From NCBI RefSeq assembly GCF_022009635.1, contig NZ_CP091716.1, forward strand, positions 2,309,001 to 2,373,000: a stretch of 64,000 bases of DNA, written 5' to 3'. The notes beneath the pieces are model-generated. The model searched no databases, was not told the origin of the DNA, and saw only the letters and a list, made by a program, of their open reading frames with translations. The DNA is from Variovorax paradoxus. Lineage in GTDB: Bacteria > Pseudomonadota > Gammaproteobacteria > Burkholderiales > Burkholderiaceae_C. The position numbers and the translations under genes are program-made. Below, in pieces: positions 22,866-48,756 of this stretch (positions are counted from its first letter, which is position 1; each line of letters opens with the position of its first letter).

Positions 22866-23342
22866 TCAGTCTTCCTCTGGCCCTTCGACGGGCACATGCA
22901 CGTGCAGCTCGATCATCTGCCGCAGCGTCTGCTTGAGTTCCTCGGCGCGGCGCAGGCCGAAGGGCTCCAGCACGCGCCGCTCGTGATCACGCGCCAGTTC
23001 CATCAGATGCTCGACCGCCTTCAGGCCTTCGCGCGTGATGCGCACCAGCGTGATGCGGCGATCACTTTCGTGGGGCAGCCGCTCGACTTGTCCGCGCGAT
23101 TCCATGCGGTCCAGCAGCCGCGTCACCGTCGGCTGCTTGGTGACGGTCACCTGTGCGAGCTGGCCGATGCTCAGCGGCTCGCTGCCTGCAAGAGATGCCA
23201 TCACACGCCACTCCGACACCGAGAAACCCTGCTGCCGCGCGACCTCGTGGAACTCCGAGGAGATCAACTGGCTGGCCTGCGCCAGCAGCGCCGGAAGGTA
23301 GTCGTCGACGAAGCGATGCGAAGGAGGCGACGACTCAGCCAT
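22866..23342 (-). CDS. MarR-family regulator divergent from the auxin-type catabolic operon
   Basis: The 158-residue winged-helix protein has the MarR order: dimerisation helix, LSIGQLAQVTVTKQPTVTR as recognition helix, LLDRMESRGQVERL, and the wing ESDRRITLVRITREG. Its start is 144 bases from the start of the 2-oxoacid oxidoreductase gene, with candidate operator repeats between them. It is a good candidate for the IAA-responsive repressor of the locus (IadR in published work on Variovorax). A second MarR lies at 47789, and I cannot tell from sequence which one corresponds to IadR. Confidence 0.88.
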   Translation of the reverse strand: MAESSPPSHRFVDDYLPALLAQASQLISSEFHEVARQQGFSVSEWRVMASLAGSEPLSIGQLAQVTVTKQPTVTRLLDRMESRGQVERLPHESDRRITLVRITREGLKAVEHLMELARDHERRVLEPFGLRRAEELKQTLRQMIELHVHVPVEGPEED

Positions 23343-23390
23343 GAACGCACCCCGCGCATGTGGTGGGCACGCAGCTTGCGTGTCTAGGGT

Positions 23391-23428
23391 AATTCATGAT
23401 TGTGGATACATTCATTTGTAAACATTAT
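23391..23428. promoter_or_regulatory. promoter and candidate MarR operator for the 23487 operon
   Basis: TTGTGG at 23400-23405, a 17-base spacer and CATTAT at 23423-23428 form a plausible plus-strand promoter. Within it lie two direct ATTCAT repeats (23392-23397 and 23410-23415), an inverted TACA-N6-TGTA (23407-23420), and the unit ATTCA-TTTGT-AAACATT at 23410-23426. A similar unit recurs at 46993-47010. The region is AT-rich against a GC-rich background and lies between divergent genes. Confidence 0.5.
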
Positions 23429-23486
23429 AGGAAGCGTGATGTGGCAACCGATGCCCATCCTCCCACGATAGAGAACAAGGACCCAC

Positions 23487-25679
23487 ATGGCTGAGCGTTC
23501 GTTCGTCGAAGAAGTCAAGAAGCTGCGGCTTTCTGGCGGAGAGGTGTTCCGTGGAGAGGGCATTCTGGCCGTCACCAAGGCCCTGCTCGAATCCGGGGTT
23601 TCCTATGTGGCGGGCTACCAGGGCGCGCCCATCTCTCATTTGATGGACGTGCTGGCCGACGCGCAGGACATCCTCGCCGACCACGGCATCCGCTTCGAGA
23701 ACAGCGCGAGCGAGGCCACCGCCGCCGCCACGCTGGCCGCTTCCGTCAACTACCCGCTGCGCGGCGCCGTCACCTTCAAGGCCACTGTCGGCACCAACGT
23801 CGCATCCGATGCACTGGCCAATCTTGCGTCGGGCGGCGTGACCGGCGGCGCGCTCATCATCGTGGGCGAGGACTACGGCGAAGGCTCCTCGATCATGCAG
23901 GAGCGCAGCCATGCCTTCGCGATGAAGTCGCAGATCTGGCTGCTCGATCCACGCCCCAACCTGCCGAGCATCGTCGATGCGGTGAAGCAGGGCTTCGATC
24001 TCTCGGAGGCCAGCAGCACGCCCGTGATGCTCCAGCTGCGCATCCGCGCATGTCACGTGCACGGACACTTCGTCGCGGGCGACAACAAGCGCGCGAAGTT
24101 CACGCTGAAAGATGCGCTCGAGAACCCGCGGCGCGACGTCGGCCGCATCGTGCTGCCGCCCGCGAGCTTCGTGCACGAGCAGGAGAAGGTGAAGGACCGC
24201 TGGCCCGCCGCCGTGCGCTTCATCGAGGAGCGCAAGCTCAACGAGTTCTTCTCGGAAGACGCCGACGACATCGGCATCATCGTGCAGGGCGGCAGCTACA
24301 ACACGCTGCTGCGCGCGCTCGAACGGCTGGGCCTTGCCGACGTGTACGGCAATACGCAGGTGCCGCTGTACGTGATGAACGTGGCCTACCCGGTCATCGA
24401 GAGCGAGGTGATCCGCTTCTGCAAGGGCAAGCGCGCGGTGATGATCGTGGAAGAGGGGCAGCCCAACTTCGTCGAGCAGAACCTCGCGACCATCCTGCGC
24501 CAGGCGGGCTCCAACACCGCGCTGCACGGCAAGGACATGCTGCCGGTGGCCGGCGAGTACACCGCCGCCGAGTTGCTCAAGGGCGCGCGCAGCTTCTGCG
24601 AACGCTACGGGCGCCTGGCACCGCTGCCGGTGCCCGCGCCGGTGCGCAAGGTGATTCCACTGAAAGAAGTGGCCGCCATCGGCGTCGACGCCGCACCCGA
24701 GCCCGTGCAGCCATCGACCGCGCTCGGCGACGTGGTGCATGCGCGTCCGCCGGGCTTCTGCACCGGCTGCCCCGAGCGTCCGATCTTCAGCGCGATGAAG
24801 CTGGTCGAGCGCGAACTGGGCCCGCACCACGTGAGCGCGGACATCGGCTGCCACCTGTTCTCCATCCTGCCGCCCTTCAACATCGGCAACACCACCATGG
24901 GCTACGGCCTGGGCGGCGCGGGTGCCGCGGCGCTCAACGCGCCGGCGGGCAAGCGCGCGATCTCGATGATGGGCGACGGCGGCTTCTGGCACAACGGCCT
25001 CACCAGCGGCGTGGCCAACGCGGTCTTCAACAAGAGCGACAACCTCACCATCGTCGTCGACAACAACTACACCTCGGCCACGGGCGGACAGGACATCCTT
25101 TCCTCGCACGCCGTCAACAAGACGCGCAGCACCGGCCACGAGATCGAGCGCGCCGTGCGCGGCGTGGGCGTGGAATGGGTGAAGACGATGCGCCGCACCT
25201 ACGACATCGCCGGCATGCGCGACGCGCTCAAGGAAGCGCTGACCACGAAGGAAAAAGGCCCGAAGGTGCTGATCGCCCAGTCGGAGTGCATGCTCAACAA
25301 ACAGCGCCGCGAGAAGCCGCTGGTGCGCAAGGCCATCGCCGACGGCAAGCGCATGGTGCGCGAAAAATTCGGCGTCGACTCCGACACCTGCACCGGCGAC
25401 CACTCGTGCATCCGCCTCTCGGGCTGCCCGTCGCTGTCGATCAAGCCCAACCCCGATCCGCTGCGCACCGACCCCGTGGCGACCGTGCTCGACAGCTGCG
25501 TGGGCTGCGGCGTGTGCGGCGAGGTCTCTCACGCCGCGGTGCTGTGCCCCTCCTTCTACAAGGCGCAGATCGTGAGCAACCCCAGCCGCTGGGACATGCT
25601 GCGCGAGCGCGTGCGCGCGGCCGTCATCGGCTGGCTGCAGCGCGGCGAAGCGCGTCGCCGCGAAGCCTATGCCTTCTGA
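23487..25679 (+). CDS. indolepyruvate ferredoxin oxidoreductase alpha-like subunit
   Basis: The 730-residue protein resembles IorA: a pyrimidine-binding N-terminal region (GYQGAPISHLMDVLADA), a TPP-binding domain (GDGGFWHNGLTSGVANAV, then DNNYTSATGGQD), and a C-terminal ferredoxin-like domain. IorA/IorB enzymes turn arylpyruvates such as indole-3-pyruvate into aryl-acetyl-CoA. The Cys spacing is unusual: CTGDHSCIRLSGCP and CVGCGVCGEVSHAAVLCP are not two standard CxxCxxCxxxCP clusters. It is the first gene of the catabolic operon; in the published iad order it would take the first position, but the letter is not assigned here. Confidence 0.85.
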   Translation: MAERSFVEEVKKLRLSGGEVFRGEGILAVTKALLESGVSYVAGYQGAPISHLMDVLADAQDILADHGIRFENSASEATAAATLAASVNYPLRGAVTFKATVGTNVASDALANLASGGVTGGALIIVGEDYGEGSSIMQERSHAFAMKSQIWLLDPRPNLPSIVDAVKQGFDLSEASSTPVMLQLRIRACHVHGHFVAGDNKRAKFTLKDALENPRRDVGRIVLPPASFVHEQEKVKDRWPAAVRFIEERKLNEFFSEDADDIGIIVQGGSYNTLLRALERLGLADVYGNTQVPLYVMNVAYPVIESEVIRFCKGKRAVMIVEEGQPNFVEQNLATILRQAGSNTALHGKDMLPVAGEYTAAELLKGARSFCERYGRLAPLPVPAPVRKVIPLKEVAAIGVDAAPEPVQPSTALGDVVHARPPGFCTGCPERPIFSAMKLVERELGPHHVSADIGCHLFSILPPFNIGNTTMGYGLGGAGAAALNAPAGKRAISMMGDGGFWHNGLTSGVANAVFNKSDNLTIVVDNNYTSATGGQDILSSHAVNKTRSTGHEIERAVRGVGVEWVKTMRRTYDIAGMRDALKEALTTKEKGPKVLIAQSECMLNKQRREKPLVRKAIADGKRMVREKFGVDSDTCTGDHSCIRLSGCPSLSIKPNPDPLRTDPVATVLDSCVGCGVCGEVSHAAVLCPSFYKAQIVSNPSRWDMLRERVRAAVIGWLQRGEARRREAYAF

Positions 25680-25683
25680 CGCA

Positions 25684-27189
25684 ATGACGAGCACTGCACA
25701 ACCCATCAAGATCGCGATCCTCGCCATGGGCGGGGAGGGCGGCGGCGTGCTGGCCGACTGGATCGTCGACATGGGCGAGGCCAACGGCTACGTCGCTCAG
25801 ACCACTTCCGTGCCGGGCGTGGCCCAGCGCACCGGCGCGACCATCTACTACGTCGAGCTGTATCCGACGGCGCAGGCCGAGGCCGATGGCGGCTTGCCGA
25901 TTCTGGCGCTGATGCCGCTGCCCGGCGACGTCGACGTGGTGCTGGCCTCCGAACTCATGGAGGCAGGGCGCGCCGTGCAGCGCGGCCTGGTCACGCGCGA
26001 CCGCACCACGCTCATCGCATCCACGCACCGCGTCTTCTCCATCGCCGAGAAGAGCGCGATGGGCGATGGCCGCGTCGACAGCGACCAGCTCCTCGCGCAC
26101 ACCGCCAAGGCCGCCAGGCGCTTCATCCGCTTCGACATGGCGCAGGCGGCGGAAGCCTCGGGCAGCGTGATCAGCGCGGTACTCTTCGGCGCCCTGGCAG
26201 GCTCGGGCGTGCTGCCTTTCAGCCGCGCGCAGTTCGAGGCAACCATCGAGCGCGGCGGCGTCGGCGTGAAGCCCAGCCTCAAGGCTTTCGGTGCCGCCTT
26301 CGCCCGTGCACAGGGCGGCGACGACGGCGAACCAACAAGCGAGGCGGCGAGTGCCGCGCCGGCGCCGCAGCCGCGCCACCCCGCCGTGCGCGCACTGGTC
26401 GAGCGTGTGCAGCGCGACTTTCCGGTGGCGGCGCAGGACCTGCTGCTCGAAGGTGTGCGTCGCCTCATCGACTACCAGGATCCGGCCTATGCCGGCCTGT
26501 ACCTCGACCGCATGGCGGCCGTCGCGGCATTGCCGGCGAGCGACCACCGCCTGCTGCGCGAGACCGCGCGCCACCTCGCGCTCTGGATGTCCTACGAGGA
26601 CACGGCCCGCGTCGCGGCCCTGAAGACCCGCGCCACCCGCTTCGAGCGCGTGCGCGGCGAGGCCCGCGTGCAGCCGGGCCAGGTGCTCGCCATCAACGAA
26701 TACATGCACCCGCGCCTGCAGGAAATCTGCGAGACGCTGCCCGGCGGCGTCGGCCGCTGGCTCATGAACTCGACGCTGCCGAAGAAACTGGTCGAGCGCT
26801 TCACGCAGCATGGCCGCGTGATCCAGACCAGCTCGCTGCGCGGCTATCTCATGCTGCGCATGGTGGCGGCCTGCAAGCGCTGGCGTCTCTCGACCATGCG
26901 CTATGCCGAAGAAAACCGCCGCATCGAGGAATGGCTGCAGCGCATCGCCGCCACCGCGCAGCGCAACCCCGAACTGGCCGTCGAACTGGCGCAGTGCCAA
27001 CGCCTCGTCAAGGGCTACAGCGACACGCACGAGCGCGGCATCCGCAACTACGACACCGTGATGCGCGCCTTCGAGCGTGCAGGCGCCGCGCTCGCACCGG
27101 CCACGTTGCGCGAACTGCGCGACGCGGCGCTGGCCGACGAACACGGCCACAAGCTGCAGGCTGCACTCGCGCAGCACGCACTGGTTTGA
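25684..27189 (+). CDS. indolepyruvate ferredoxin oxidoreductase beta-like subunit with long C-terminal domain
   Basis: The N-terminal 190 residues are a 2-oxoacid:acceptor oxidoreductase gamma-type domain (IAILAMGGEGGGVLADWIVD, QTTSVPGVAQRTGAT). About 290 further residues form an all-helical domain found in the long IorB forms of aerobic proteobacteria. Total length is 501 residues from the ATG at 25684; an in-frame ATG at 25669 overlaps the previous stop and would add five residues. It is the partner subunit of the 23487 product. Confidence 0.84.
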   Translation: MTSTAQPIKIAILAMGGEGGGVLADWIVDMGEANGYVAQTTSVPGVAQRTGATIYYVELYPTAQAEADGGLPILALMPLPGDVDVVLASELMEAGRAVQRGLVTRDRTTLIASTHRVFSIAEKSAMGDGRVDSDQLLAHTAKAARRFIRFDMAQAAEASGSVISAVLFGALAGSGVLPFSRAQFEATIERGGVGVKPSLKAFGAAFARAQGGDDGEPTSEAASAAPAPQPRHPAVRALVERVQRDFPVAAQDLLLEGVRRLIDYQDPAYAGLYLDRMAAVAALPASDHRLLRETARHLALWMSYEDTARVAALKTRATRFERVRGEARVQPGQVLAINEYMHPRLQEICETLPGGVGRWLMNSTLPKKLVERFTQHGRVIQTSSLRGYLMLRMVAACKRWRLSTMRYAEENRRIEEWLQRIAATAQRNPELAVELAQCQRLVKGYSDTHERGIRNYDTVMRAFERAGAALAPATLRELRDAALADEHGHKLQAALAQHALV

Positions 27190-27202
27190 AGAGACAACGA
27201 CG

Positions 27203-28195
27203 ATGACCGCTCCCTCAGCCACCCTCTCGCTGCGCGTCGTGCAAGCGCGGGAACTCAACCCGCTGATCCGCATGCTGCGCCTGCACGCCGAAGACGGCCG
27301 CGCGCTGCCCGGCTTCTCGGCCGGTGCGCACATCCGCGTACAGGTGTCGCTGCCCGACGGAAAGACCGACTGGCGCCACTACTCGCTCATCAACTTCGAC
27401 ACGGCGCGCAATGCCACCAACGCGCCCACCGAGTACGTGATCGCGGTGCGCAAGGAAGCCGAAGGCCGGGGCGGTTCGCGCTTCATGCACGAGCAGTTGA
27501 AAGAGGGCGACACCATCGCCATCGAGCCGCCGAAGAACGACTTTCCCCTGCACACCGGGCCGGGGGGCTCCGTACTGGTGGCAGGCGGCATCGGGGTGAC
27601 GCCGTTGGCCACGATGGCTGCGCGCCGTCGTGCCGAAGGCGCGGCCGTGCACATGCATTACGCCGGCCGCAGCCGCGACCTGATGGCCTTCCTGCCTGAA
27701 CTGCAAACGTTGCTCGGAGACGACTTGCGCGTGCATGCGGATGCCGAAGCCGGCACCCCGCTCGATATCGACACGCTGCTCGACGGCGTGCCCGCGGGCG
27801 ATCGCCTGTACGTCTGCGGCCCGAAGGTCATGCTCGACGCGGTGCTCGAGCGCACCCAGGCGCGCGGCTGGGAACACGACCGCGTGCACTTCGAGCTCTT
27901 CACGGAACCCGTCGCGGAAGAGGGCGACCAGCCCTTCGAGGTGGAGCTTGCCCAGTCGGGCCAGCGCTTCACCGTGCCGGCGGACCAGAGCATCCTCGAC
28001 TGCCTCATCGAGCACGGCTGCGACCCGATGTTCGACTGCAAGCGCGGCGAATGCGGCGTGTGCGCCGTGCCCGTGCTCGAAGGCGAGATCGAACACCGCG
28101 ACTACGTGCTCACCGCCCGCGAGAAGGCGGAAGGCAACGTCATGCAGATATGCATCTCGCGCGCCAAGGGTGCGCGGCTGGTGCTCGACATCTGA
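27203..28195 (+). CDS. iadC: FMN/2Fe-2S oxygenase reductase (PDR/VanB family)
   Basis: The 330-residue class IA reductase has an FMN-binding barrel with RHYS at residues 58-61, the NAD-binding GGIGVTPLATMAA and YVCGPKVML, and a C-terminal plant-type [2Fe-2S] domain with Cys at 279, 284, 287 and 317. It passes electrons from NAD(P)H to a Rieske oxygenase. It lies directly before the oxygenase alpha and beta genes, the same reductase-alpha-beta order as iadC-iadD-iadE, whose products are reported to convert IAA to 2-oxindole-3-acetate. The symbol rests on this order and family. Confidence 0.82.
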   Translation: MTAPSATLSLRVVQARELNPLIRMLRLHAEDGRALPGFSAGAHIRVQVSLPDGKTDWRHYSLINFDTARNATNAPTEYVIAVRKEAEGRGGSRFMHEQLKEGDTIAIEPPKNDFPLHTGPGGSVLVAGGIGVTPLATMAARRRAEGAAVHMHYAGRSRDLMAFLPELQTLLGDDLRVHADAEAGTPLDIDTLLDGVPAGDRLYVCGPKVMLDAVLERTQARGWEHDRVHFELFTEPVAEEGDQPFEVELAQSGQRFTVPADQSILDCLIEHGCDPMFDCKRGECGVCAVPVLEGEIEHRDYVLTAREKAEGNVMQICISRAKGARLVLDI

Positions 28196-28215: not shown

Positions 28216-29529
28216 ATGACCTCCTACAGAGACAACCCCGACGCCATCCGCGCGCTGGTGCAGAACGACCGCGTGCACCGCGACCTGTACACCAGCCAGG
28301 AGCTCTTCGAGCTGGAGCAGGAGCACTTCTTCGCCAACACCTGGAACTACGTCGGCCATGAAAGCCAGCTGCCCAAGCCGGGCGACTGGATCAGCAACGA
28401 GATCGCGGGGCGGCCGCTGATCATCGTGCGCCACTCCGACGGCAGCGTGCGCGCGATGATGAACCGCTGCGCCCACAAGGGCTCGCGGCTCGTGAATGGA
28501 CCCTGCGGCAACACCGGCAAGTTCTTCCGCTGCCCGTACCACGCCTGGACCTTCAAGACCGACGGCGCGCCGCTGGCGATTCCGCTGAAGACAGGCTACG
28601 AGAACACCCAACTGCACGAGTGCGAGACGGGCAAGGGCCTGACCACCGTGAAGCACGTGCGCAGCCACCGCGGCTTCATCTTCGTGAAGATCAACGATGC
28701 CGGCCCGGACTTCGACGAATACTTCGGCGACTCGCTGAGTTCCATCGACAACATGGCGGACCGCTCGCCCGAAGGCGAACTGGAGATCGCCGGCGGCTGC
28801 CTGCGCTTCATGCACCAATGCAACTGGAAGATGTTCGTGGAGAACCTCAACGACACCATGCACCCCATGGTGGCGCACGAATCGTCGGCCGGCACCGCCA
28901 AGCGCATGTGGGCCGACAAGCCCGAGAGCGAGCCCAAGCCCATGGCCGTGGAGCAGTTCGTGCCCTTCATGTCCGACTACAAGTTCTTCGAGGACATGGG
29001 CATCCGCACCTACGACAACGGCCACAGCTTCACGGGTGTGCACTTCAGCATCCACAGCAAGTACAAGGCGATCCCCGAGTACGACAACGCGATGAAGGCG
29101 CGCTACGGCGAGGAGAAGACCGCGCAGATCCTCGGCATGGCTCGGCACAACACCGTGTACTACCCGAACCTCACGATCAAGGGCGCGATCCAGGCGATCC
29201 GCGTGGTGAAGCCGATCTCGGCCGACAAGACATTGATCGAGAGCTGGACCTTCCGCCTCAAGGGCGCGCCGCCGGAGCTGCTGCAGCGCACCACCATGTA
29301 CAACCGGCTCATCAACTCGCCGTTCTCCGTGGTGGGGCATGACGACCTTCAGGCTTACCGCGGCATGCAGGCCGGCCTGCATGCGAGCGGCAACGAATGG
29401 GTGAGCCTGCATCGAGACTACGACCCGGCCGAACTCAAGGGCGGCGAGATCACCACCGGCGGCACCAACGAGCTGCCGATGCGCAATCAATACCGCAGCT
29501 GGGTCCAGCGTATGACGGAGACGATGTGA
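28216..29529 (+). CDS. iadD: Rieske non-heme iron ring-hydroxylating oxygenase, alpha subunit
   Basis: The 437-residue protein has a Rieske [2Fe-2S] domain with ligands Cys85, His87, Cys106 and His109 (NRCAHKG and RCPYH), and a catalytic domain with the mononuclear iron ligands Asp213, His216 and His221 in NDTMHPMVAH. It follows the reductase gene by 20 bases, and its stop overlaps the beta-subunit start by one base (TGATG). By order and family it matches IadD, the catalytic subunit of the indole-3-acetate dioxygenase. A paralogue of the same layout lies at 38037. Confidence 0.87.
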   Translation: MTSYRDNPDAIRALVQNDRVHRDLYTSQELFELEQEHFFANTWNYVGHESQLPKPGDWISNEIAGRPLIIVRHSDGSVRAMMNRCAHKGSRLVNGPCGNTGKFFRCPYHAWTFKTDGAPLAIPLKTGYENTQLHECETGKGLTTVKHVRSHRGFIFVKINDAGPDFDEYFGDSLSSIDNMADRSPEGELEIAGGCLRFMHQCNWKMFVENLNDTMHPMVAHESSAGTAKRMWADKPESEPKPMAVEQFVPFMSDYKFFEDMGIRTYDNGHSFTGVHFSIHSKYKAIPEYDNAMKARYGEEKTAQILGMARHNTVYYPNLTIKGAIQAIRVVKPISADKTLIESWTFRLKGAPPELLQRTTMYNRLINSPFSVVGHDDLQAYRGMQAGLHASGNEWVSLHRDYDPAELKGGEITTGGTNELPMRNQYRSWVQRMTETM

Positions 29530-30020
29530 TGGCCAACGCCGCGGAAGTCACCCGACAGCAGCTGATCGACTTCGTCGTGAACGAAGTCCACCTGCTCGAC
29601 ACGCGCCGCTACGAAGAGTGGAACGCGCTATTCACCGACGACGCCTTCTACTGGATTCCGCTGGTGCCCGACCAGGAGGACGGACTCAACCACACCTCGC
29701 ATCTCTACGAAGACAAGCTGCTGCGCGACCTGCGCATCGAGCGCCTGAAGAGCCCGCGCGCCTTCTCGCAGCAGCCGCCGAGCCGCTGCCACCATCTGCT
29801 GCAGATGCCGGTGGTCGAGCAGTTCGATGCGGAAGCCAACCGCTACGTGGTGCGCACATCGTTCCACTACACCGAATCGCAAGGCGACGAGCTGCAGTTC
29901 TACGTCGGCACCTTCTTTCACCATCTCTCGGTGCAGGACGGCGCGCTGCGCATGACGCTCAAGCGCGTCAACCTGCTCAACTGCGACGCGGCCCTGCCGG
30001 CCGTCCAGCTTTTCATCTGA
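29529..30020 (+). CDS. iadE: aromatic-ring-hydroxylating dioxygenase beta subunit
   Basis: The 163-residue protein has the small-subunit fold of ring-hydroxylating dioxygenases (SnoaL/NTF2-like): LIDFVVNEVHLLDTRRYEEW, FYWIPLV, RIERLKSPRAFSQQPPSR and a C-terminal LLNCDAALPAVQLFI. It is needed for assembly of the alpha3beta3 oxygenase and is non-catalytic in known systems. Translationally coupled to the alpha subunit. The symbol follows position next to the iadD-like gene. Confidence 0.86.
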   Translation: MANAAEVTRQQLIDFVVNEVHLLDTRRYEEWNALFTDDAFYWIPLVPDQEDGLNHTSHLYEDKLLRDLRIERLKSPRAFSQQPPSRCHHLLQMPVVEQFDAEANRYVVRTSFHYTESQGDELQFYVGTFFHHLSVQDGALRMTLKRVNLLNCDAALPAVQLFI

Positions 30021-30034: not shown

Positions 30035-31663
30035 ATGCCACACGCCACCGTCCATCAAGTCTTCGCGGCCACCGCGGCGCGCACGCCGCAGGCCGAGTTC
30101 CTGTTCACCGAATCGGTGACGGCCGCCGCCTACGGCATCGAAGCGGGCGCCATCCGCTGGGGCGATGCCGCCGGGCGGATTGAGCGCCTGCGCGCCGCCT
30201 ACGCGCAGGCCGGCTATGGTCACGGCCACCGCGTCGGCCTGTTGCTGGAGAACCGGCCCGCCTTCATCTTCCACTGGCTCGCGCTGAACGCGCTGGGCGT
30301 GAGCGTGGTGCCGATCAACGCGGAGATGCGCTCGGCCGAGCTGGTCTACCTGATCGGCCACAGCGAGATCGGGCTGGCCGTGACGCTGCAGGAGCGCGCC
30401 GCGGACCTGCGTGCGGCGGCTGCCCAGGCGGGCATCGAGTTCGAGACGATGGGCCCCGACGATGCGGTGCCTCCGGCGAGGACGCCAGCGCCACGCGCGC
30501 ACGAGCCGGTCGGCACCGACACCGAATGCGGCCTGCTCTACACCTCGGGCACCACGGGCCGGCCCAAGGGCTGCATCCTGAGCAATGCCTACTTCCTGCG
30601 CGCTGGCGAGTGGTATGCCGCGCTGGACGGCGTGTGCAGCATCCGCCCGGACAAGGAGCGCGTCATCACGCCGCTGCCGCTCAACCACATGAACGCGATG
30701 GCCTTCTCCACCATGGTGGTGCTGGTCGCGGGCGGCTGTCTGGTGCAGCTCGATCGCTTCCATCCGAAGACCTGGCTGGCGAGCGCGAAGGAGAGCGGCG
30801 CGACCATCGTTCACTACCTGGGCGTGATGCCGGCGATGCTGCTGTCCGCGCCCGCGTCGGCGGCAGACCGCGACCATGCCATCCGCTGGGGCTTCGGCGC
30901 CGGTGTTGATCGCAAGAACCACGCGCCCTTCGAGGAGCGCTTCGGCTTCCCGCTGGTCGAGGCCTGGGCCATGACCGAGACCGGCGCGGCCGCCTGCATC
31001 ATGGCCAACCGCGAGCCTCGGCTGGTGGGCACCAGCTGCTTCGGCCGCCAGGAAGACTTCGTCGAGATCCGCCTCGTGGGCGAGGACGGCGGGGACGCAG
31101 CCGTCGATGCGCCGGGCGAACTGCTGGTGCGATCGGCCGGCTCCGACCCGAGGCGCTATTTCTTCTCCGGCTATCTCAAGGACGAGGAAGCCACCCGCGA
31201 AGCCTGGGCCGATGGCTGGTTCCATACCGGCGATCTGGTGCGCCGCGACGCGCAGGGCAACTTCTTCTTCGTCGATCGCAAGAAGAACGTGATCCGCCGC
31301 AGCGGAGAGAACATCTCCGCCGTCGAGGTCGAGAGCGTGCTCAACCAGCATCCGGCCGTGAAGGCATCCGCCGTGGCCGCCACGCCCGACGCCGTGCGCG
31401 GCGACGAGGTGCTGGCATGCGTCGTGATGCGCGAAGACGCCGGCGCGGTGCATCCCGAACAGATCGCGGCGAGCATCGTCCAGCATGCGCTGGCGCAGCT
31501 CGCCTACTACAAGGCGCCGGGCTACGTTGCCTTCGTCGACGCGCTGCCGCTCACGCCGTCACAGAAGATCCAGCGTGGGCAACTGCGCGAGATGGCCCGG
31601 GCGCTGCCCGGCCAGGGCCATTGCATCGACACGCGCGCCATGAAGAAGAGGCAGCAGCCATGA
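30035..31663 (+). CDS. AMP-forming acyl-CoA ligase (first of two)
   Basis: The 542-residue ANL-superfamily enzyme has the P-loop [16 protein letters not shown], the EAWAMTETGAAA aromatic motif, FHTGDLVRRDAQG and the hinge region VDRKKNVIRRSGENIS, with the C-terminal catalytic Lys in LTPSQKIQRGQL. It probably forms the CoA thioester of IAA or of an oxidised or ring-opened product. It lies 14 bases after the dioxygenase beta subunit and overlaps the next gene by four bases. Confidence 0.88.
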   Translation: MPHATVHQVFAATAARTPQAEFLFTESVTAAAYGIEAGAIRWGDAAGRIERLRAAYAQAGYGHGHRVGLLLENRPAFIFHWLALNALGVSVVPINAEMRSAELVYLIGHSEIGLAVTLQERAADLRAAAAQAGIEFETMGPDDAVPPARTPAPRAHEPVGTDTECGLLYTSGTTGRPKGCILSNAYFLRAGEWYAALDGVCSIRPDKERVITPLPLNHMNAMAFSTMVVLVAGGCLVQLDRFHPKTWLASAKESGATIVHYLGVMPAMLLSAPASAADRDHAIRWGFGAGVDRKNHAPFEERFGFPLVEAWAMTETGAAACIMANREPRLVGTSCFGRQEDFVEIRLVGEDGGDAAVDAPGELLVRSAGSDPRRYFFSGYLKDEEATREAWADGWFHTGDLVRRDAQGNFFFVDRKKNVIRRSGENISAVEVESVLNQHPAVKASAVAATPDAVRGDEVLACVVMREDAGAVHPEQIAASIVQHALAQLAYYKAPGYVAFVDALPLTPSQKIQRGQLREMARALPGQGHCIDTRAMKKRQQP

Positions 31664-39362: not shown

Positions 39363-39823
39363 CGGACCCGCGCGATTTCGTCGCCCATGAAGCGGCACTG
39401 CTCGACGAGCGCCGGCTCGATGAATGGCTGGCCCTGTTCGCCGAAGACGGCCACTACTGGGTGCCGCTGCTCGGCGCGGCGCAGGCCGACCCCTTCTCGC
39501 ACAACTCGCTGGCCTACGAAGACCGGCTGCTGCTGCAGTTGCGCGTGGACCGCCTGAAGAACCCGCGCGCGCATTCGCAGCATCCCGCCAGCCACAGCCA
39601 GCACGTGCTGCAGCCTTCGCGCGTCGAACGCGAGGAAGGCGACGAGGCATGGCTGCGCACCCCCTTTCTGTACGTGGAGGCACGCGGCGGGCAGCAGATC
39701 CTGCTGAGCGGCACCGCCCGCCACCACCTCGTTCGCACGCCCACCGGCTGGCTGATCCGCGAGAAGCGCATCGACCTGCTCGATGCCGGGCGCGCATTGC
39801 CGGCCATCCAGTTGTTCATCTGA
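39359..39823 (+). CDS. dioxygenase beta subunit, second copy
   Basis: The 154-residue small subunit matches the 29529 product in layout (DERRLDEWLALFAEDGHYWVP, RVDRLKNPRAHSQHPASHS, C-terminal LLDAGRALPAIQLFI), somewhat shorter. It forms the second alpha/beta pair with the preceding gene. The duplicated pair sits between binding-protein genes, suggesting duplication of a larger block. Confidence 0.85.
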   Translation: MTDPRDFVAHEAALLDERRLDEWLALFAEDGHYWVPLLGAAQADPFSHNSLAYEDRLLLQLRVDRLKNPRAHSQHPASHSQHVLQPSRVEREEGDEAWLRTPFLYVEARGGQQILLSGTARHHLVRTPTGWLIREKRIDLLDAGRALPAIQLFI

Positions 39824-39866
39824 GTTACCTGTCCATTCCAACAACCATCCTCACCGGAGCTACGAC

Positions 39867-41064: not shown

Positions 41065-42120
41065 ATGACGTGGGACGTGGCGCTGATCCTCCTCACCGAC
41101 GGCCTGGCCAACGGGGCCGTCTACCTGCTGGCCGGGCTCGGGCTGGTGCTGATCTTCTCGGTCACGCGGGTGGTGTTCGTGCCGTTCGGCGACATCGCGG
41201 CCTTCGCGGCGCTGTCGCTCGCGGCCTTCGAGACCGACCGCGTGCCGCCGACCATCGGCATGGTCGCGGTGCTGGCCGCGCTGGCATTGGCCACCGAGGT
41301 CGGCAGCCTGCTGCGCCGCGGCGAGGCCAAGCGCATCCCGAAGGCGGTGCTGATGTGGGGCGTGCTGCCAGCCATTCCGTGCGTGTTGGCGTGGCTGGCC
41401 GCGCGGCCCGGCGTGCCGGTGGCTGTGCACATCGCGGTGGCCGTGCTGCTGGTGGTGCCCATCGCGCCGCTGCTGGCGCGGGTGGTGTTCCAGCCGATCG
41501 CGGATGCGTCGGTGCTGGTGCTGCTGATCGTTTCGCTGGCGCTGCACTTCCTGCTGTCGGGGTTGGGCCTGCTGTTCTTCGGGCCTGAAGGTTCGCGCAC
41601 CACGCCGCTGACCAGCGCTGTGTTCACACTGAGCGATGGTTTCACCGTCAGCGGGCAGGTGGTGCTGATGGTGGGAGCGGCCATCGTGCTGAGCGGGCTG
41701 TTCTTCCTGGTGTTCGAGCGCACGGTGGCCGGCAAGGCGCTGCGCGCCACGGCGGTGAACCGGGTGGGCGCGCGGCTGGTGGGCATCCGGCCAGTGCGCA
41801 CGGCGCTGCTGGCCTACGGCTGCGCCTCGCTGCTGGCCGGGCTGATCGGCGTGCTGATCGCGCCGGTGACGACCATGTATTACGACTCGGGCTTCATCAT
41901 CGGACTGAAGGCCTTCGTGGCCGCGATCATCGGCGGGCTCGTGAGCTACCCGATGACGGCCGTGGGCGCGCTCGCGGTCGGCGTGGTGGAGAGCTTTGCC
42001 TCGTTCTGGAGCGGCGCGCTGAAGGACGTGATCGTGTTCAGCCTGCTGATTCCGGTGCTCATGCTGCGCTCCTTCATGGCGGCGCACGCGGAAGAGGAAG
42101 AAGACGAGGTGGACCAATGA
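41065..42120 (+). CDS. branched-chain-type ABC transporter permease (LivH-like)
   Basis: The 351-residue inner-membrane permease begins with the LivH-type ILLTDGLANGAVYLLAGLGL and has about eight to nine hydrophobic helices. It is longer than the usual ~290 residues because of an extra segment between the first two helix groups (about residues 70-130). It overlaps the next gene by four bases. With the fused LivM-LivG and LivF genes it makes a complete importer for the substrate recognised by the binding proteins. Confidence 0.86.
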   Translation: MTWDVALILLTDGLANGAVYLLAGLGLVLIFSVTRVVFVPFGDIAAFAALSLAAFETDRVPPTIGMVAVLAALALATEVGSLLRRGEAKRIPKAVLMWGVLPAIPCVLAWLAARPGVPVAVHIAVAVLLVVPIAPLLARVVFQPIADASVLVLLIVSLALHFLLSGLGLLFFGPEGSRTTPLTSAVFTLSDGFTVSGQVVLMVGAAIVLSGLFFLVFERTVAGKALRATAVNRVGARLVGIRPVRTALLAYGCASLLAGLIGVLIAPVTTMYYDSGFIIGLKAFVAAIIGGLVSYPMTAVGALAVGVVESFASFWSGALKDVIVFSLLIPVLMLRSFMAAHAEEEEDEVDQ

Positions 42121-43904
42121 ACGGCAATCGCAAACGCATGGCGTGGATCGCCGGGCTGGTCGTGGTGCTGGCGCTGGTGCCGGCGGTGGCGGGCAGCTTC
42201 ACCGTCTCGCTGCTCAACGACATCGGCATCGGTGCGCTGGTGGCGCTGGGGCTGGTGCTGCTGACCGGCGTGGGCGGCGCGACCTCGTTCGGGCAGGCGG
42301 CCTTCGTGGGCATCGCGGCCTATGCGACGGCATGGCTCACGACGACGCAGGGCATGTCGCCCTGGATCGGGCTGCTGTTCGCGCTGCTGCTCACGGGGGT
42401 GTCGGCGCTGGCCATCGGCATGCTCACGCTGCGGCTGGGCGGACACTTCCTGCCGCTGAGCACCATCGCCTGGGGGCTGTCGATCGCGATGCTGTTCGGC
42501 AACGTCGATGCGCTGGGCCGGCACACGGGGCTGTCGAACATTCCGCCGCTGCAGGTGGCGGGCTGGTCGCTGGCCGATCCGCGCGCGATGTACTACCTGA
42601 TCTGGGTGGTGGTGGGGCTGGCCTGCCTGTTCAGCCACAACCTGCTGCAGTCGCGGCCGGGGCGTGCCATTCGCGGGCTGCGCGGCGGCGCGACGCTGCT
42701 GGCGAGCGTGGGGGCGGATGCGTACCGCGTGCGGCTGTCGCTGTTCGTCACGGCCGCGCTGTTCGCGGGGCTGGCGGGCTGGCTCTATGCGCACATGAAC
42801 CGCTTCGTGAGCCCGTCGCCATTCGACGTGCGCGCCAGCATCGAGTACCTGCTGATGGCGGTGGCCGGCGGCCTCGGCCAGCTTGCGGGCGCGCTGGTGG
42901 GCGCCGCGCTGGTGCTGGTGCTCAAGAACGGCCTGCAGGACGTGCTGCCCATGCTCACGCAGCGGGCAGGGCAGCTGGAGGCGGTGGCCTTCGCGGCGCT
43001 CTTCATCCTGCTGCTGCACTTTGCGCGCGGCGGTGTGATGGGCCTGCTGCGCCGCTGGACGCGCAGGCGCGGTTCGGCGCGAGAGCCGTCGCGCCACGAT
43101 GCGCCGCCGGTCGAGCCTCTGCCGCACCGCACGCTGCCCGAGCGCGGCTCGCAGGTGCTGTCGGTGAACGGCGCGGTCAAGCGCTTCGGCGGGCTGGTGG
43201 CGGTGAACGACGTGAGCTTCGACGTGAAGGCCGGAGAGATCGTCGGGCTGATCGGGCCCAACGGCGCAGGCAAGTCGACCATGTTCAACCTGCTGACCTG
43301 CACGCTGCCGATGAGCTCGGGCCAGGTGCGCTTCCTGGCGCACGACATCGCCGGCATGCCGCAGCGCGAGGTGGCGCGGCTGGGTCTGGCGCGCACCTTC
43401 CAGCATGTGAAGCTGCGCCCGCACATGAGCCTGCTGGACAACGTGGCGCTGGGCGCGCATTCGCGCACGCGCTCGGGCATCCTGAAGGCCGGGCTGCGGC
43501 TGGACCGCACGGAAGAGCGGCAGATCCTGCAGGAGGCGCAGCGACAGCTCGACCGCATCGGCCTGGGCGACCGCGCGCATGAACTCGCGGGCAGCCTGCC
43601 GCTGGGCACGCAGCGCATTCTGGAAATCGCACGCGCGCTGGCTGCCGACCCCGTGCTGCTGGTGCTCGACGAGCCCGCCGCCGGCCTGCGCCGCAAGGAA
43701 AAGATGGCGTTAGGCGATCTGCTTCGCAAGCTGCGCGAGGAGGGCGTGACCATCCTCATCGTCGAACACGACATGGACTTCGTGATGAAACTGGTAGACC
43801 GGTTGGTGGTGATGAACTTCGGCTCCAAGCTCGTGGAGGGCGTGCCGTCCGCGGTGCGCGCGGACGAGCGCGTGCAGGCGGCCTACCTGGGGAGCGTCGT
43901 ATGA
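42117..43904 (+). CDS. fused ABC permease-ATPase (LivM-LivG-like)
   Basis: The first ~320 residues are a LivM-type permease with about ten membrane helices; residues ~345-595 are a LivG-type ATPase with P-loop [13 protein letters not shown], a signature-like loop [20 protein letters not shown] and Walker [13 protein letters not shown]. The fusion replaces two separate subunits and is known in several Burkholderiales. It overlaps genes on both sides by four bases. Confidence 0.9.
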
Positions 43905-44632
43905 CCGCGATGCTCGAGATTGGCGACCTGCACGTGTCGTACGGGCAGGTGGAGGCGGTGCGTGGCGTGTCGCTCGACCTGCAGCCGGGGCAGATCATCT
44001 CGGTGATCGGCCCGAACGGCGCGGGAAAGACCACGCTGCTGGCTGCCGCCATGGGCCTGCTGCCCTGCAAGGGCACGCTGCGCTTCGAGGGCGAAGACCT
44101 GCAGGGGCTCGACGTGGAAGCGCGCGTGGAGCGCGGCCTGTGCCTCGTGCCGGAGAAGCGCGAGCTGTTCGGCGAACTCACCGTGCTCGACAACCTGCAG
44201 CTCGGCGCCTATGCCAAGCGGCTGCGCGGCGATGCGATGAAGAAGCGGCTGCAGTCGGTGTACGACCGCTTTCCCCGGCTGGCGGAACGGCGGACGCAGC
44301 GCGCCGACACGCTCTCGGGCGGCGAGCGGCAGATGCTGGCGGTGGGCCGCGCGCTGATGTCGGCGCCCCGGCTGCTGATGCTCGACGAGCCCAGCCTGGG
44401 CTTGGCGCCGCTGATCGTGCGGGACATCCTGACCATCGTGCGCAAGCTGCGCGATGACGGCGTGTCGATCCTGCTGGTGGAGCAGAACGCGCGCGCGGCG
44501 CTGGAAAGCTCGGACCAGGGCTACGTGCTGGAGACCGGCGAGATCGCGCTGTCGGGCGCCTCGGCCGAACTGGCGAGCGACCCGCGCGTGCAGGCGACCT
44601 ACCTCGGCGGAGGCACGCACGATGACGACTGA
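43901..44632 (+). CDS. ABC transporter ATPase (LivF-like)
   Basis: The 243-residue ATPase has P-loop [15 protein letters not shown], signature [16 protein letters not shown] and Walker [14 protein letters not shown], in the LivF pattern. It is the second ATPase of the importer. Its C-terminus ends with a His/Asp-rich GGGTHDDD, and its stop lies 11 bases inside the following ligase gene. Confidence 0.92.
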
Positions 44633-46211
44633 TGTTCGCGCCGTGCCGCCTGCCCGGCGCACGCTGCCTGCAATGCTGCTGCGGCAGGCCGATGTGTTCG
44701 GTGCGCGCGCGCTGCTGCGCATCGGGGCGCACGCCTGGACGCATCGCGACGCGGCGCAGGCCGCCGCAGTCCGTGCCGGTGCGTTGGCGGCCGCGGGCGT
44801 GGCGCGCGGCGACCGCATCGCGGTGATGTGCGGCAACCGCATCGAGTTTCTGGAGAGCTTTCTCGGCGCGGGCTGGCTGGGGGCGTCGACCGTTCCGGTC
44901 AACACCGCATCGATGGGGCCGCAGGTCGAATACTTCCTGGCGAACAGCCAGGCGAAGCTGCTGGTGATCGAGGCGGCGTTCGTCGAGCGGCTTGCGACAG
45001 CCGACCTGGCGCGCACGTCATTGCGCGAGATCTGGGTGGTAGGAGGCTCGGAGGCTGTCGAATGGCAGGTGCCCGCCGGCGTGCGCGTGGTGCCGTACCC
45101 CGAAGCAGGAGACGCCCTGGAGCCGGCGCCGGTGCAACCCGGCGATCCGCTTGCCATCCTCTATACCTCGGGCACTACAGGGCCCGCCAAGGGCGTGATC
45201 TGCCCGCATGCGCAGTATTTCTGGTGGGGCGTGAACAGCGCGGAAGTGCTCGGCGTGGGAGCCGATGACGTGCTGTGCACCACGCTTCCGCTGTTCCATA
45301 TCAACGCGCTCAACACCTTCGCGCAGGCTGCGCTGACGGGTGCCGAGGTGGTGTTCGAATCGCGCTTCTCGGCGTCGGGCTTCTGGCCCGCGATGCGTGC
45401 GAGCCGCGCGACGGTGGTGTACCTGTTGGGCGCGATGGTGCCGATTCTGTTGGCGCAGCCGGAAGGCGCGGGGGAGCGGGAGCATCGGGTGCGCATCGGG
45501 CTCGGGCCTGGCGTGCCTTCCGCCGCGGGTGCGACGTTCAAGGCGCGCACGGGCGTGTCGCTGCTCGAGGGCTACGGCTCGACCGAGACCAACTTCGCCA
45601 TCGCCACCGCGCCCGATTCGCCGCGCGGCGGCGTCATGGGCTGGTTGCGGCCAGGTTTCCAGGCGCGCGTGGCCGATGAAGACGACGTGGCGTTGCCGCC
45701 TGGCGAAGCCGGCGAATTGCTGCTGCGCGCGGACGAGCCCTATGCCTTTGCGAGCGGCTACTTCAACATGCCGGAAAAGACGGTCGAGGCCTGGCGCAAT
45801 CTCTGGTTCCATACCGGAGACCGCGTGGTGCGCGATGCCGACGGGGCCTTTCGTTTCGTCGACCGCATCAAGGACGCGATCCGGCGGCGGGGCGAGAACA
45901 TCTCTTCGTTCGAGGTCGAGCAGGTGCTGCTGAGCCATCCGGGCGTGGCCGCGTGTGCCGTGTATCCGGTGCGCTCCGAACTGGCGGAAGACGAGGTGAT
46001 GGCGGCGCTGGTTGCGCGCGAAGGCGTGCCGGTCGATCCTGCCGAACTGGCGCGTTTCTGCGAAGGGCGCTTGCCTTACTTCGCGGTGCCGCGCTACATC
46101 GACGTGCTGGCCGATCTGCCGCGCACCGAGAACGGCAAGGTGCAGAAGTTCAAGCTGCGCGAGCGCGGCGTGGGGCCGCTGACGTGGGACGGCCGGCCCG
46201 CGAGGAGCTAG
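44622..46211 (+). CDS. AMP-forming acyl-CoA ligase (second of two)
   Basis: The 529-residue ANL enzyme has [59 protein letters not shown] and the terminal catalytic Lys in [12 protein letters not shown]. It differs in substrate-pocket segments from the ligase at 30035. Two ligases suggest activation at two stages of the pathway, or of two related substrates. It overlaps livF by 11 bases and is followed after four bases by an SDR gene. Confidence 0.88.
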
Positions 46212-46215
46212 ACGC

Positions 46216-46962
46216 ATGATGGACGCAGCGTCGACCCTTTCCGGCCGCGTGGCGTTCGTGACGGGGGCAGGACGCGGGCTTGGCGAGGCCATTGCCCGCG
46301 GGCTGTCGGAGGCGGGAGCGAAAGTCGCGTTGGCGGATGTCGATCTTGCAGGCGTGGAGGCGGTGGCAAAGGAGATCGGCGGCCTCGCGCTGCGGCTCGA
46401 TGTGCGTAACGAGGCCGGGTTCCGCGCCTGCTTCGACGAGGCCGTGGCGCACTTTGGCGCCGTCGACATCATGGTCAACAACGCGGCGCGCACGCCGACC
46501 ACCTCGCTGTGGGAGATCACGCCCGAGGAGTGGGACGACGTGCTCGCCATCAACCTGCGCGGCAGCTTCTTCGGCTGCCGCATTGCCGGCCGGCACATGC
46601 GCGAGCGGGGTACAGGGCGCATCGTCAACCTGGCGTCGATGGCGGGGCAGCAGTCCAGCGCGGCGACCGGCGTGCACTACGCGGCGAGCAAGGCGGGGTT
46701 GCTGGCGCTGACGCGCTCGTTCGCGCAGGAACTGGCACCGCACGGCGTGACCGTGAACGCGCTGGCGCCAGCGGCGATCCGGAGCCCCCTGCTCGAGGCG
46801 CTGGACCCCGCGCGGCGGCAGACGCTGCAAGCGAGCATTCCGATCGGGCGCTTCGGTTTGCCGGAGGAAGTGGCAGCCGCGGTGGTTTATCTCGCGTCCC
46901 CGGCGGCGGCCTTCTTGACCGGCGCCACCCTGGATCTCAACGGCGGCCGTTTCATGCGGTGA
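46216..46962 (+). CDS. short-chain dehydrogenase/reductase
   Basis: The 248-residue SDR has TGAGRGLG, NNAA in place of NNAG, an LASMAG Ser segment and YAASK, so it should be active. The C-terminus (FLTGATLDLNGGRFMR) is of the FabG-like group. It is the last gene of the contiguous run that begins at 23487; a possible internal promoter follows it. Confidence 0.86.
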   Translation: MMDAASTLSGRVAFVTGAGRGLGEAIARGLSEAGAKVALADVDLAGVEAVAKEIGGLALRLDVRNEAGFRACFDEAVAHFGAVDIMVNNAARTPTTSLWEITPEEWDDVLAINLRGSFFGCRIAGRHMRERGTGRIVNLASMAGQQSSAATGVHYAASKAGLLALTRSFAQELAPHGVTVNALAPAAIRSPLLEALDPARRQTLQASIPIGRFGLPEEVAAAVVYLASPAAAFLTGATLDLNGGRFMR

Positions 46963-46985
46963 CAACCCGTGCTCGTCCGCACCGC

Positions 46986-47013
46986 TAAAATGATTCAGAA
47001 CTAAAACATTCAG
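46986..47013. promoter_or_regulatory. candidate internal promoter and MarR operator
   Basis: TAAAAT at 46986-46991 is a -10 candidate with only a weak -35 (TGACAA at 46960, spacer 20). It is followed by two ATTCAG repeats (46993-46998 and 47008-47013) and by ATTCA-GAACTA-AAACATT at 46993-47010, which parallels the element before 23487. It sits 2 bases before the SDR-MarR-thioesterase unit. Confidence 0.4.
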
Positions 47014-47015
47014 GT

Positions 47016-47792
47016 ATGTACTCAAATTCATTGACTGGCCGCCATGCACTCGTCACGGGTGCCGCACGCGGCATTGGCGCCGAGATCGCCCGTACCCTTG
47101 CCGCCCAGGGGGCTCTTCTGACCCTGCTGGGGCGTGATCGCGAGGCACTGCAGCGGGTGGCCGACTCGCTGGAAGGCGACGGGCATGGCGTGGTTGCCGC
47201 GGATGTGGCGAACCAGGAGGCGGTACAGGCGGCCTTCGCCGAGGCGCGCGCCGTACGCGGGCCGGTCGCGATCCTCGTCAACAACGCGGGTGCGGCCGAG
47301 AGTGCGCCGTTCCTCAAGACTTCGTTTGATCTCTGGCAGCGGATGCTGTCGGTCAACCTCACGGGCAGCTTCCTGTGCGCGCAGGCGGCGCTACCCGACA
47401 TGCTCGACGCCGGCTGGGGGCGCATCGTCAATATCGCCAGCACGGCGGGGCAGAAGGGCTATGCCTATGTGGCGGCCTACACGGCCGCCAAGCACGGCGT
47501 GGTCGGGCTCACGCGTTCGCTGGCGCTCGAAGTGGCGCGCAAGGGCATCACGGTGAATGCGGTGTGCCCCGGCTATACCGACACCGACATTTTGCGCAAC
47601 AGCGTGGCCAATGTGGTCGGCAAGACAGGACGCAGCGAAGCCGATGCGCTGGCGGAGTTCTCGAGCGTCAACCCGCAGCGCCGCATCGTGCAGCCGGCAG
47701 AGGTGGCCGACACAGTGCGCTGGCTGTGCGGCGAAGGTGCTGCGTCGGTTACGGGGCAGTCGATCTCGGTTTCAGGAGGAGAAGTGACATGA
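47016..47792 (+). CDS. short-chain dehydrogenase/reductase (3-hydroxyacyl-CoA type)
   Basis: The 258-residue SDR has [22 protein letters not shown] and YTAAKHG, all intact; the [10 protein letters not shown] lid and [12 protein letters not shown] end are typical of 3-hydroxybutyrate/3-hydroxyacyl-CoA dehydrogenases. Its stop overlaps the MarR start by four bases. The third active SDR of the locus. Confidence 0.86.
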
Positions 47793-48319
47793 CACGCAAC
47801 GATGCTTCTCATGCGGCGTTGAGCGACGCCGAAGAACTGGGCCACGAAGCGCGCGCCGGCCATGAAGACCACGCGATGCTCAAGCTGTGGCTGCGCATGC
47901 TGGCCAGTACCACGCAGATCGAGGCCGAGATCCGGCGCCGGCTGCGGGAGCGCTTCGGTATCTCGCTGGCACGCTTCGACTACATGGCGCAGCTCTACCG
48001 CTACAAGGACGGGCTGAAGATGCGCGTGCTGTCGCGCTATCTGATGGTGACGGGCGGCAACGTCACGGGCCTGACGGACGAACTCGAACGCGAAGGCATG
48101 GTGGCGCGCGCACCCAGCCCGGACGACCGCCGTGCGTGGATCGTGAGTCTCACGCCCACCGGGCGCCGCACTTTTGAGACCATGGCGAGCGAGCACGAGC
48201 AATGGATCCTCGAAATGTTCTCGGGGCTCGACATGAAGACGGTGAAGCAACTGCATACGCAGCTTGGCCTGCTGCGTGTGCACGTGATGCGCGGCGAGCC
48301 TTCGGGCGAGGAGGGGTGA
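47789..48319 (+). CDS. MarR-family regulator at the distal end of the catabolic locus
   Basis: The 176-residue winged-helix protein has a ~25-residue N-terminal extension, a recognition region [19 protein letters not shown], and the wing [18 protein letters not shown]. The start overlaps the preceding SDR stop, and GGAG lies just upstream. A regulator of the aromatic-acid MarR type, probably binding a pathway CoA-thioester or acid. Two MarR genes flank the locus, as in the Variovorax auxin locus. Confidence 0.88.
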
Positions 48320-48321
48320 GC

Positions 48322-48756
48322 ATGGGCGAGAGCAGCGAGTTTTGCCGGCCGAGGCTGATCCGCTTCTCGGACTGCGATCCGGCGGGAATCGTCTTCTATC
48401 CGCAGTACTTCGTGATGCTCAACGGCCTCGTCGAAGACTGGGTGAACGAAGGCCTCGGGCTCAGCTATCACGGGCTGGTGGCGCAGCGGCGAATCGGCCT
48501 GCCGACCGTGAAGCTCGAAGCCGACTTCCGCGCGGTGAGCCGCATGGGCGATCAGGTGATGCTCGGACTGGCCGTCGAGCGACTGGGTTCGCGTTCGATG
48601 ACCTTGCGCGTGCGCTGCTTCGATCCCGTCGATGGTGAGGTGCGCATGCAGATGCAGCAGGTGCTGGTGACCACGTCGCTCGAAACGCATCGCGCGGTTG
48701 CCATTCCGGATGACATGCGCGCGGCCATCGTGCGCAACGCGCCCGAATTGGGCTGA
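48322..48756 (+). CDS. hotdog-fold acyl-CoA thioesterase (4-hydroxybenzoyl-CoA type)
   Basis: The 144-residue protein has the active-site motif RFSDCDPAGIVFYPQYF of 4-hydroxybenzoyl-CoA thioesterases, with the catalytic Asp in DCD. It probably releases the aromatic acid product (an anthranilate-type acid) from CoA at the end of the pathway, or relieves CoA trapping. It starts two bases after the MarR gene stop. Confidence 0.87.
   Translation: MGESSEFCRPRLIRFSDCDPAGIVFYPQYFVMLNGLVEDWVNEGLGLSYHGLVAQRRIGLPTVKLEADFRAVSRMGDQVMLGLAVERLGSRSMTLRVRCFDPVDGEVRMQMQQVLVTTSLETHRAVAIPDDMRAAIVRNAPELG

Follow-up and report, generated by a model that had tools for sequence, protein, structure and literature searches.

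The window examined here is a stretch of 64,000 nucleotides from Variovorax paradoxus (contig NZ_CP091716.1, positions 2,309,001 to 2,373,000), taken from a genome of 7.95 Mb in two contigs, and our subject is the region from 22866 to 48756 within it. Called again gene by gene, this 26-kb region holds 24 genes (E2, described below, included), from iadR to a thioesterase gene, all with a domain or homologue match, and it is almost certainly a complete and ordinary Variovorax iad-type locus for the catabolism of the auxin indole-3-acetate (IAA). As a locus it is already known, being the published Variovorax iad gene set. At 38037-39823 there is, in addition, another complete Rieske alpha/beta pair, here called D2E2, which is by its sequence a diverged paralogue of the ring oxygenase IadDE. 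In the list below, IadA, IadB, IadF to IadJ and the genes after K3 are assigned by family and gene order.

22866-23342, minus strand: iadR, MarR repressor of MarR_73 type (7kki, E 7.6e-92; seven IAA contacts kept)
23343-23486, no strand: iadR-iadA divergent promoter/operator interval (most conserved at about 23372-23430 in an alignment of 64 intergenic regions including the window's)
23487-25679, plus strand: iadA, indolepyruvate ferredoxin oxidoreductase alpha-like, IotA (TPP_enzyme_C; IOR_alpha 290 bits)
25669-27189, plus strand: iadB, indolepyruvate oxidoreductase beta family, IorB (NF006179, 744 bits, cut-off 348)
27203-28195, plus strand: iadC, flavin mononucleotide (FMN)/2Fe-2S reductase (7ylr, E 2.2e-209)
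28216-29529, plus strand: iadD, Rieske oxygenase alpha, Arg310-His311 type (9o71 and 7yls, E about 1e-300)
29529-30020, plus strand: iadE, Rieske oxygenase beta (7yls_A, E 9.6e-102)
30035-31663, plus strand: iadF, acyl-coenzyme A (CoA) ligase (AMP-binding)
31660-32835, plus strand: iadG, thiolase-like (Thiolase_C_1)
32832-34085, plus strand: iadH, fusion of DUF35 (ChsH2-type) and short-chain dehydrogenase/reductase (SDR) (zf-ChsH2, OB_ChsH2_C and adh_short in one open reading frame)
34102-34914, plus strand: iadI, cyclase/kynurenine formamidase family (PF04199)
34911-35645, plus strand: iadJ, SDR dehydrogenase (adh_short_C2; position)
35695-36861, plus strand: iadK2, IAA-binding protein homologue (7ylt, 712 bits)
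36863-38008, plus strand: iadK3-type binding protein, K3 (7ylt, 571 bits; V104 and L172 as published for IadK3)
38037-39362, plus strand: D2, second Rieske alpha, Pro310-Gln311 type (57.7% to IadD; own clade)
39359-39823, plus strand: E2, Rieske beta partner of D2, whose end it overlaps (45.8% to IadE)
39867-41030, plus strand: third binding protein, SBP3 (7ylt, 546 bits)
41065-42120, plus strand: LivH-type permease (BPD_transp_2)
42117-43904, plus strand: LivM-LivG fusion, permease and ATPase (BPD_transp_2 and ABC_tran in one open reading frame)
43901-44632, plus strand: LivF-type ATPase (ABC_tran)
44622-46211, plus strand: second acyl-CoA ligase (NF004808, 854 bits, cut-off 722)
46216-46962, plus strand: SDR (adh_short_C2)
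47016-47792, plus strand: SDR (adh_short)
47789-48319, plus strand: second MarR, IadR2-like by position (MarR_2; best PDB match 3boq, 88 bits)
48322-48756, plus strand: 4HBT-type thioesterase (PF13279)

Identities to solved Variovorax proteins, counted by eye from alignments with the PDB sequences, are 307 of 330 residues for IadC (93%, 7ylr), 418 of 437 for IadD (95.7%, 9o71, E 2.4e-301, with 7yls also at about 1e-300), 147 of 159 for IadE (92.5%, 7yls_A) and 147 of 158 for IadR (93%, 7kki); because the E values for IadD, IadR and IadC are 2.4e-301, 7.6e-92 and 2.2e-209, these matches are not due to chance. IadD keeps all 15 of the ligand and IAA-pocket residues that we checked (pocket as given in PMC10374108), and IadR keeps the IAA contacts Y15, A18, S28, H32, W45, R46 and V65 (PMC9613470); papers are cited here, by PMC number, for portions of their text. 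The core iadC-D-E-F-G-H-I-J-K2 is complete and in the published order (PMC12633357, PMC10374108), and both iadA and iadB, described as exclusive markers of iad (PMC9613470), are present. For comparison we scanned named genome contigs and kept the best 80 of 176 loci, among which the highest identities to IadD, at 98-99%, all belong to Variovorax records. In that set iadJ is present in 70 of the 71 loci with more than 9 kb after the iadD frame start, the one exception being L081, which seems to correspond to G583:C7, a contig with iadJ and iadD about 105 kb apart.

An earlier note, made from the letters of the window, had proposed an iad locus from gene architecture, and alignment now bears this out, with identities of 92.5-95.7% to solved IadC, IadD, IadE and IadR where low identity might have been found. 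Domain and homologue searches also recover the gene content that it listed, close to where it had placed it: two MarR genes (22866-23342, minus; 47789-48319, plus), a reductase and Rieske alpha and beta subunits in iadC-D-E order at 27203, 28216 and 29529, an isatin-hydrolase/kynurenine-formamidase-type enzyme, which is the PF04199 cyclase-family protein at 34102-34914, two acyl-CoA ligases (AMP-binding proteins at 30035 and 44622), a thiolase-like protein at 31660 and a DUF35 protein at 32832-34085 that is in fact fused to an SDR, SDRs at 34911, 46216 and 47016, a thioesterase at 48322, and a Liv-type importer (41065-44632) with three binding proteins (35695, 36863 and 39867), which align to the IadK2 structure 7ylt with 712, 571 and 546 bits. 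The list did not include iadA/iadB (23487-27189) or the second Rieske pair. The product that it named for IadDE with IadC, 2-oxindole-3-acetate (oxIAA), is the version of PMC10374108 and is disputed by a 2025 preprint (PMC12633357).

Two details weigh against the assignment of the locus. IadA scores 290 bits against the IOR_alpha model, below the cut-off of 651, whereas IadB lies above its own. IadK2 keeps N126, W172, R199, F308 and Y311 of the IAA pocket in the alignment to 7ylt, but it has Ala104 and Tyr168 instead of Ser104 and Phe168 at two published pocket positions, so that its affinity for IAA is not assured. Among 64 IadK2 homologues from the fetched loci the Ala104/Tyr168 pair occurs in 10, all of them Variovorax records, and Ser104/Phe168 in 52. 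The Ser104/Thr125 numbering of PMC10374108 was mapped onto 7ylt with an offset of 27; at position 125 both 7ylt and the window's IadK2 have Ala, and the text of that paper gives Thr. A substrate other than IAA for the locus is nonetheless scarcely credible: the evidence on substrate for this strain is homology, and nothing in the analysis points to another substrate; the checked oxygenase and repressor pocket residues are kept, and identity to the characterised proteins is as high as given above.

The pathway steps have been shown or proposed in V. paradoxus CL14, and for the window's strain we infer them from identity and gene order. IadR would sit on the divergent promoter and be released when it binds IAA; a published 24-bp MarR_73 site (PMC9613470) falls in the iadR-iadA interval, placed there by position only. 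IAA would be taken up by IadK2 and the Liv importer, and electrons would pass from IadC to IadDE, which would oxidise the indole ring. In the preprint IadCDE is a monooxygenase with a proposed epoxide-type product, C10H9NO3, IadJ yields dioxindole-3-acetate, and IadF-G-H-I lead on to anthranilate (PMC12633357). In the window's strain, the hydrated product would likewise be dehydrogenated by IadJ to dioxindole-3-acetate, the acetyl side chain would be removed by IadF-G-H via CoA thioesters, and IadI would act on the oxindole, with anthranilate as the end product.

The closest known system is the iad locus of CL14 (HS33), with which the window shares core content and order, IadR and IadC/D/E at 92.5-95.7%, iadA/iadB, a second MarR and more than one binding protein (PMC9613470, PMC10374108, PMC12633357), and from which it differs in being another strain, with an IadK2 that carries A104/Y168. 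The published CL14 IMG numbering appears to leave room for D2E2 beside IadK3 (gene 61). Such loci are usual in the genus, with a prevalence above 0.95 (PMC9613470). Plasmids of Ruegeria pomeroyi, Sulfitobacter sp. and Labrenzia sp. carry a minimal iad in the same C-D-E-F-G-H-I-J order as the window, but their 17-25 kb stretches have no match to D2, iadA or iadB, all three of which the window has. The Azospirillum thermophilum plasmid (L089, 9192-24036) bears a variant cluster, A-B-C-D-E-F-J, in which an annotated salicylyl-CoA 5-hydroxylase, an enoyl-CoA hydratase and an acyl-CoA dehydrogenase follow J in place of G-H-I. A fragmentary second iad-like operon is reported for Sphingopyxis and Sphingomonas (PMC11630574). 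The iac locus of Pseudomonas putida 1290 and Caballeronia glathei also degrades IAA, and IadD and IadE are weak homologues of IacC and IacD (PMC9613470). As published, however, the first enzyme of iac is the flavin enzyme IacA and the route leads to catechol, and among the scanned proteins of the window's locus no acyl-CoA-dehydrogenase-type domain, as in an iacA-type flavin monooxygenase, was found.

D2 could at first be taken for a lone alpha subunit, a view ruled out by the true beta gene E2, found in another frame; the open reading frame listed there (39424-39870) is read in a different frame and matches nothing in Pfam at E 0.001, so E2 is easily missed. The best PDB match of D2 is 9o71, at 626 bits. 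D2 keeps the Rieske Cys and His residues, the His-His-Asp iron site, Asp213, which we take to be the bridging Asp of Rieske oxygenases, and N210, F251, K322, R329 and Y362, and departs from the IadD pocket in Leu211 to Ile and His311 to Gln, with Pro-Gln at 310-311 where IadD has Arg-His. The 217 distinct alpha subunits from the fetched loci (18 frames with fewer than about 380 aligned residues were left out) comprise 74 Pro-Gln, 120 Arg-His and 23 with another pair, and in their tree the 74 Pro-Gln proteins form a clade (support 1.0) that contains nothing else; a 214-protein tree, built before the last loci were added, held 73, and the earliest tree, which had poor outgroups, is superseded. 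The Arg-His proteins formed a clade in a smaller tree (81 of 81, support 0.92), but not in larger ones, which place the Pro-Gln clade among them. His311 in 120 of 120 and Gln311 in 74 of 74 follow from types defined by positions 310-311; outside that definition, Asn367 to Phe and Tyr381 to Phe are just as fixed (120 of 120 vs 74 of 74). In all, 14 sites, among them 310, 311, 325, 348, 367 and 381, share no residue between the two types; His311 and Asn367 are both retained in 12 more distant proteins of Ile-His type. In IadD the His311 side chain is reported to shift on IAA binding (PMC10374108). Measured against the window, dN/dS is 0.07-0.36 for D2 (six loci) and 0.02-0.33 for IadD (eleven loci); a decaying duplicate was rejected on the D2 values, which come from the 6 of 11 chosen loci with a gap-free, near-full alignment.

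Within the genus the pair is widespread. In the best 80 of 176 loci, D2 is found in 62 of those 70 whose sequence extends 11 kb or more past the iadD frame start, and 93 of 101 genus genomes match D2 at E 1e-60. In 90 the D2-type match reaches 74% identity or more (in one of them over 350 of 441 residues), and each of these genomes has at least one further match at E 1e-60 among the matches listed; the other three (G352, G355 and G365) have weaker D2 matches only. Further afield, 29 of 299 genomes in a family sample match D2: the Pro-Gln type is present in 13, each of which also has a second match of 54-60%; 12 have an Arg-His type alone, and the remaining four have matches of 32-38% only. An order sample gave 29 of 300, with Pro-Gln in G000, G175, G180 and G254 among the places where the motif was read, and a phylum sample, queried with the L164 protein, gave 7 of 398 at E 1e-110. 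The best 120 matches of each of two protein-database searches, closest relatives only, yielded 180 distinct proteins, all 180 Pro-Gln. D2E2 is thus conserved in the genus, yet without a role in the literature examined: titles and abstract openings of the iad, oxIAA and oxindole-oxygenase literature, gene-map figures not covered, name no second Rieske pair in iad loci and give it no role.

What D2E2 may do is best approached through its neighbours. Seven loci from four other genera (L164, L165, L195, L196, L199, L204 and L205) have a Pro-Gln pair within about 5 kb of iadF-G-H-I, and iadJ was not found in their 18-19.5 kb stretches; their alpha subunits all fall in the Pro-Gln clade. Three of the genomes (G1131, G1132 and G1090) have an Arg-His D-E-J set on another contig (L197, L198 and L200), where the 12-19 kb read contain no F-I. 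The remaining four (G175, G180, G1080 and G1081), from assemblies 89-98% complete, show no second, Arg-His protein at E 1e-110, and their best IadJ matches are 43% (G175), none at E 1e-30 (G180), 39% (G1080) and 38% (G1081). Arg-His loci with ligase, G, H and I in view carry iadJ in 13 of 17 cases, against 0 of 7 Pro-Gln loci (Fisher test, p 0.00095), a comparison whose rows are not independent, since four genera supply the seven Pro-Gln loci and two genera the four Arg-His loci that lack iadJ. Four of the 13 (L220, L221, L223 and L225) have a ligase that is nearer the second ligase than IadF. Dropped before the test were L206, L166 and L232 (fetched for a generic SDR), loci with both types (L167-L169 and L226-L230), and Arg-His loci that were truncated by a contig end or did not show the whole of F-I (L089, L092, L094, L095, L197, L198, L200, L202, L203, L213, L214, L216-L218, L224 and L231).

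The J-less Pro-Gln loci with F-G-H-I suggest that the product of D2E2 enters at IadF without IadJ, and hence that D2E2 may feed IadF directly, perhaps by 3-hydroxylating oxIAA. Our best single guess, weakly held, is that it would deliver dioxindole-3-acetate to IadF from auxin already oxidised at C2. Put in full, D2E2 would be a distinct Rieske subfamily that places oxygen at C3 of oxIAA to give dioxindole-3-acetate, with IadJ bypassed and K3 importing oxIAA, and bacteria with the Pro-Gln type only would be scavengers of spent auxin that spare active IAA; this we regard as tentative and rather doubtful. K3 lies directly before D2 in the window and in most loci whose order was read, and IadK3 is reported to bind oxIAA weakly (PMC10374108).

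Several observations weigh against such a role. Four Arg-His loci with F-I in view lack iadJ (L201, L207, L208 and L209), which rules out a strict pairing of iadJ with that type of oxygenase; three genomes (G254, G284 and G029) contain nothing anywhere that matches IadJ at E 1e-30, and G1111 has matches of 35-38% only. Because of these four loci and three genomes, the absence of iadJ has no diagnostic value. In L166, I and J stand next to a Pro-Gln gene whose Arg-His partner is about 106 kb off, and in L206 a Pro-Gln gene occurs without any other iad gene in view. SBP3, not K3, precedes D2 in four of the best 80 of 176 loci. Finally, in the iac pathway the step from oxIAA to dioxindole-3-acetate belongs to an SDR, IacE, which takes the oxygen from water (PMC7225977). 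That oxIAA was not depleted in a locus deletion, according to the portion of PMC12633357 cited, speaks neither for nor against consumption by D2E2. As a separate observation, L207, L208 and L209 (from G254, G284 and G029, one genus) hold A, B, F, G, H and I, with no iadC or iadJ match in the stretch.

It is a serious possibility, though short of probable, that D2E2 acts instead on another indolic or aryl acid, such as substituted IAA, indole-3-propionate or indole-3-butyrate, or on a late intermediate, together with a side-chain module made up of the second CoA ligase, the two SDRs behind it and the thioesterase. These four genes do lie downstream on the same strand, and indole-3-propionate and indole-3-butyrate are not turned over by IadCDE (PMC10374108), which leaves a substrate gap. 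But the seven J-less Pro-Gln stretches contain no match of at least 30% to the second ligase, SDR2, SDR3 or the thioesterase (L164 has a 28% SDR), and so this module is not a fixed partner. It is unlikely that D2E2 is a redundant isozyme with the substrate and product of IadDE. D2 does keep the metal ligands and pocket residues named above, and each of the 90 genus genomes with a D2-type protein has at least one further match at E 1e-60; the changes at 311, 367 and 381 near the pocket are nevertheless fixed between 120 and 74 proteins, seven Pro-Gln loci have F-G-H-I and no iadJ, and the iadC-K2 region alone suffices for anthranilate formation (PMC12633357). We give equally little credence to the idea that IadJ handles oxIAA by itself, with D2E2 unrelated: since IacE, also an SDR, does so in iac, IadJ might convert oxIAA, and three of the seven genomes do have iadJ elsewhere, but the seven Pro-Gln F-G-H-I loci have no iadJ nearby, and the best IadJ match in four of the genomes is 43% or less, or none at E 1e-30.

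Other features of the region lie apart from these questions. IadH, which adjoins the thiolase, joins a ChsH2-type DUF35 to an SDR; thiolase/DUF35 pairs occur in other aromatic pathways, and IadH recalls them. The Liv permease-ATPase fusion at 42117-43904 is one protein of 595 residues, and the thioesterase and the second MarR match only distant PDB entries. Upstream, at 19076-22824, runs a row encoding an octopine-dehydrogenase-family protein, a 3-hydroxybutyryl-CoA dehydrogenase, an alpha/beta hydrolase and a zinc-type dehydrogenase, and tRNA-Arg(acg) and tRNA-His(gtg) lie at 49902-50318, starting about 1.1 kb past the end of the locus.

With this locus the strain joins the group of root bacteria in which auxin degradation is best studied. 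OxIAA is the plant's own breakdown product of auxin, and the second oxygenase may let the bacterium use auxin that the plant has already oxidised. If D2E2 does open an oxIAA route, this would account for some of that half of the published locus which has no assigned role, it would offer a sequence marker to tell bacteria that consume active auxin from those that consume spent auxin, and what becomes of plant oxIAA in soil could then be tested directly.

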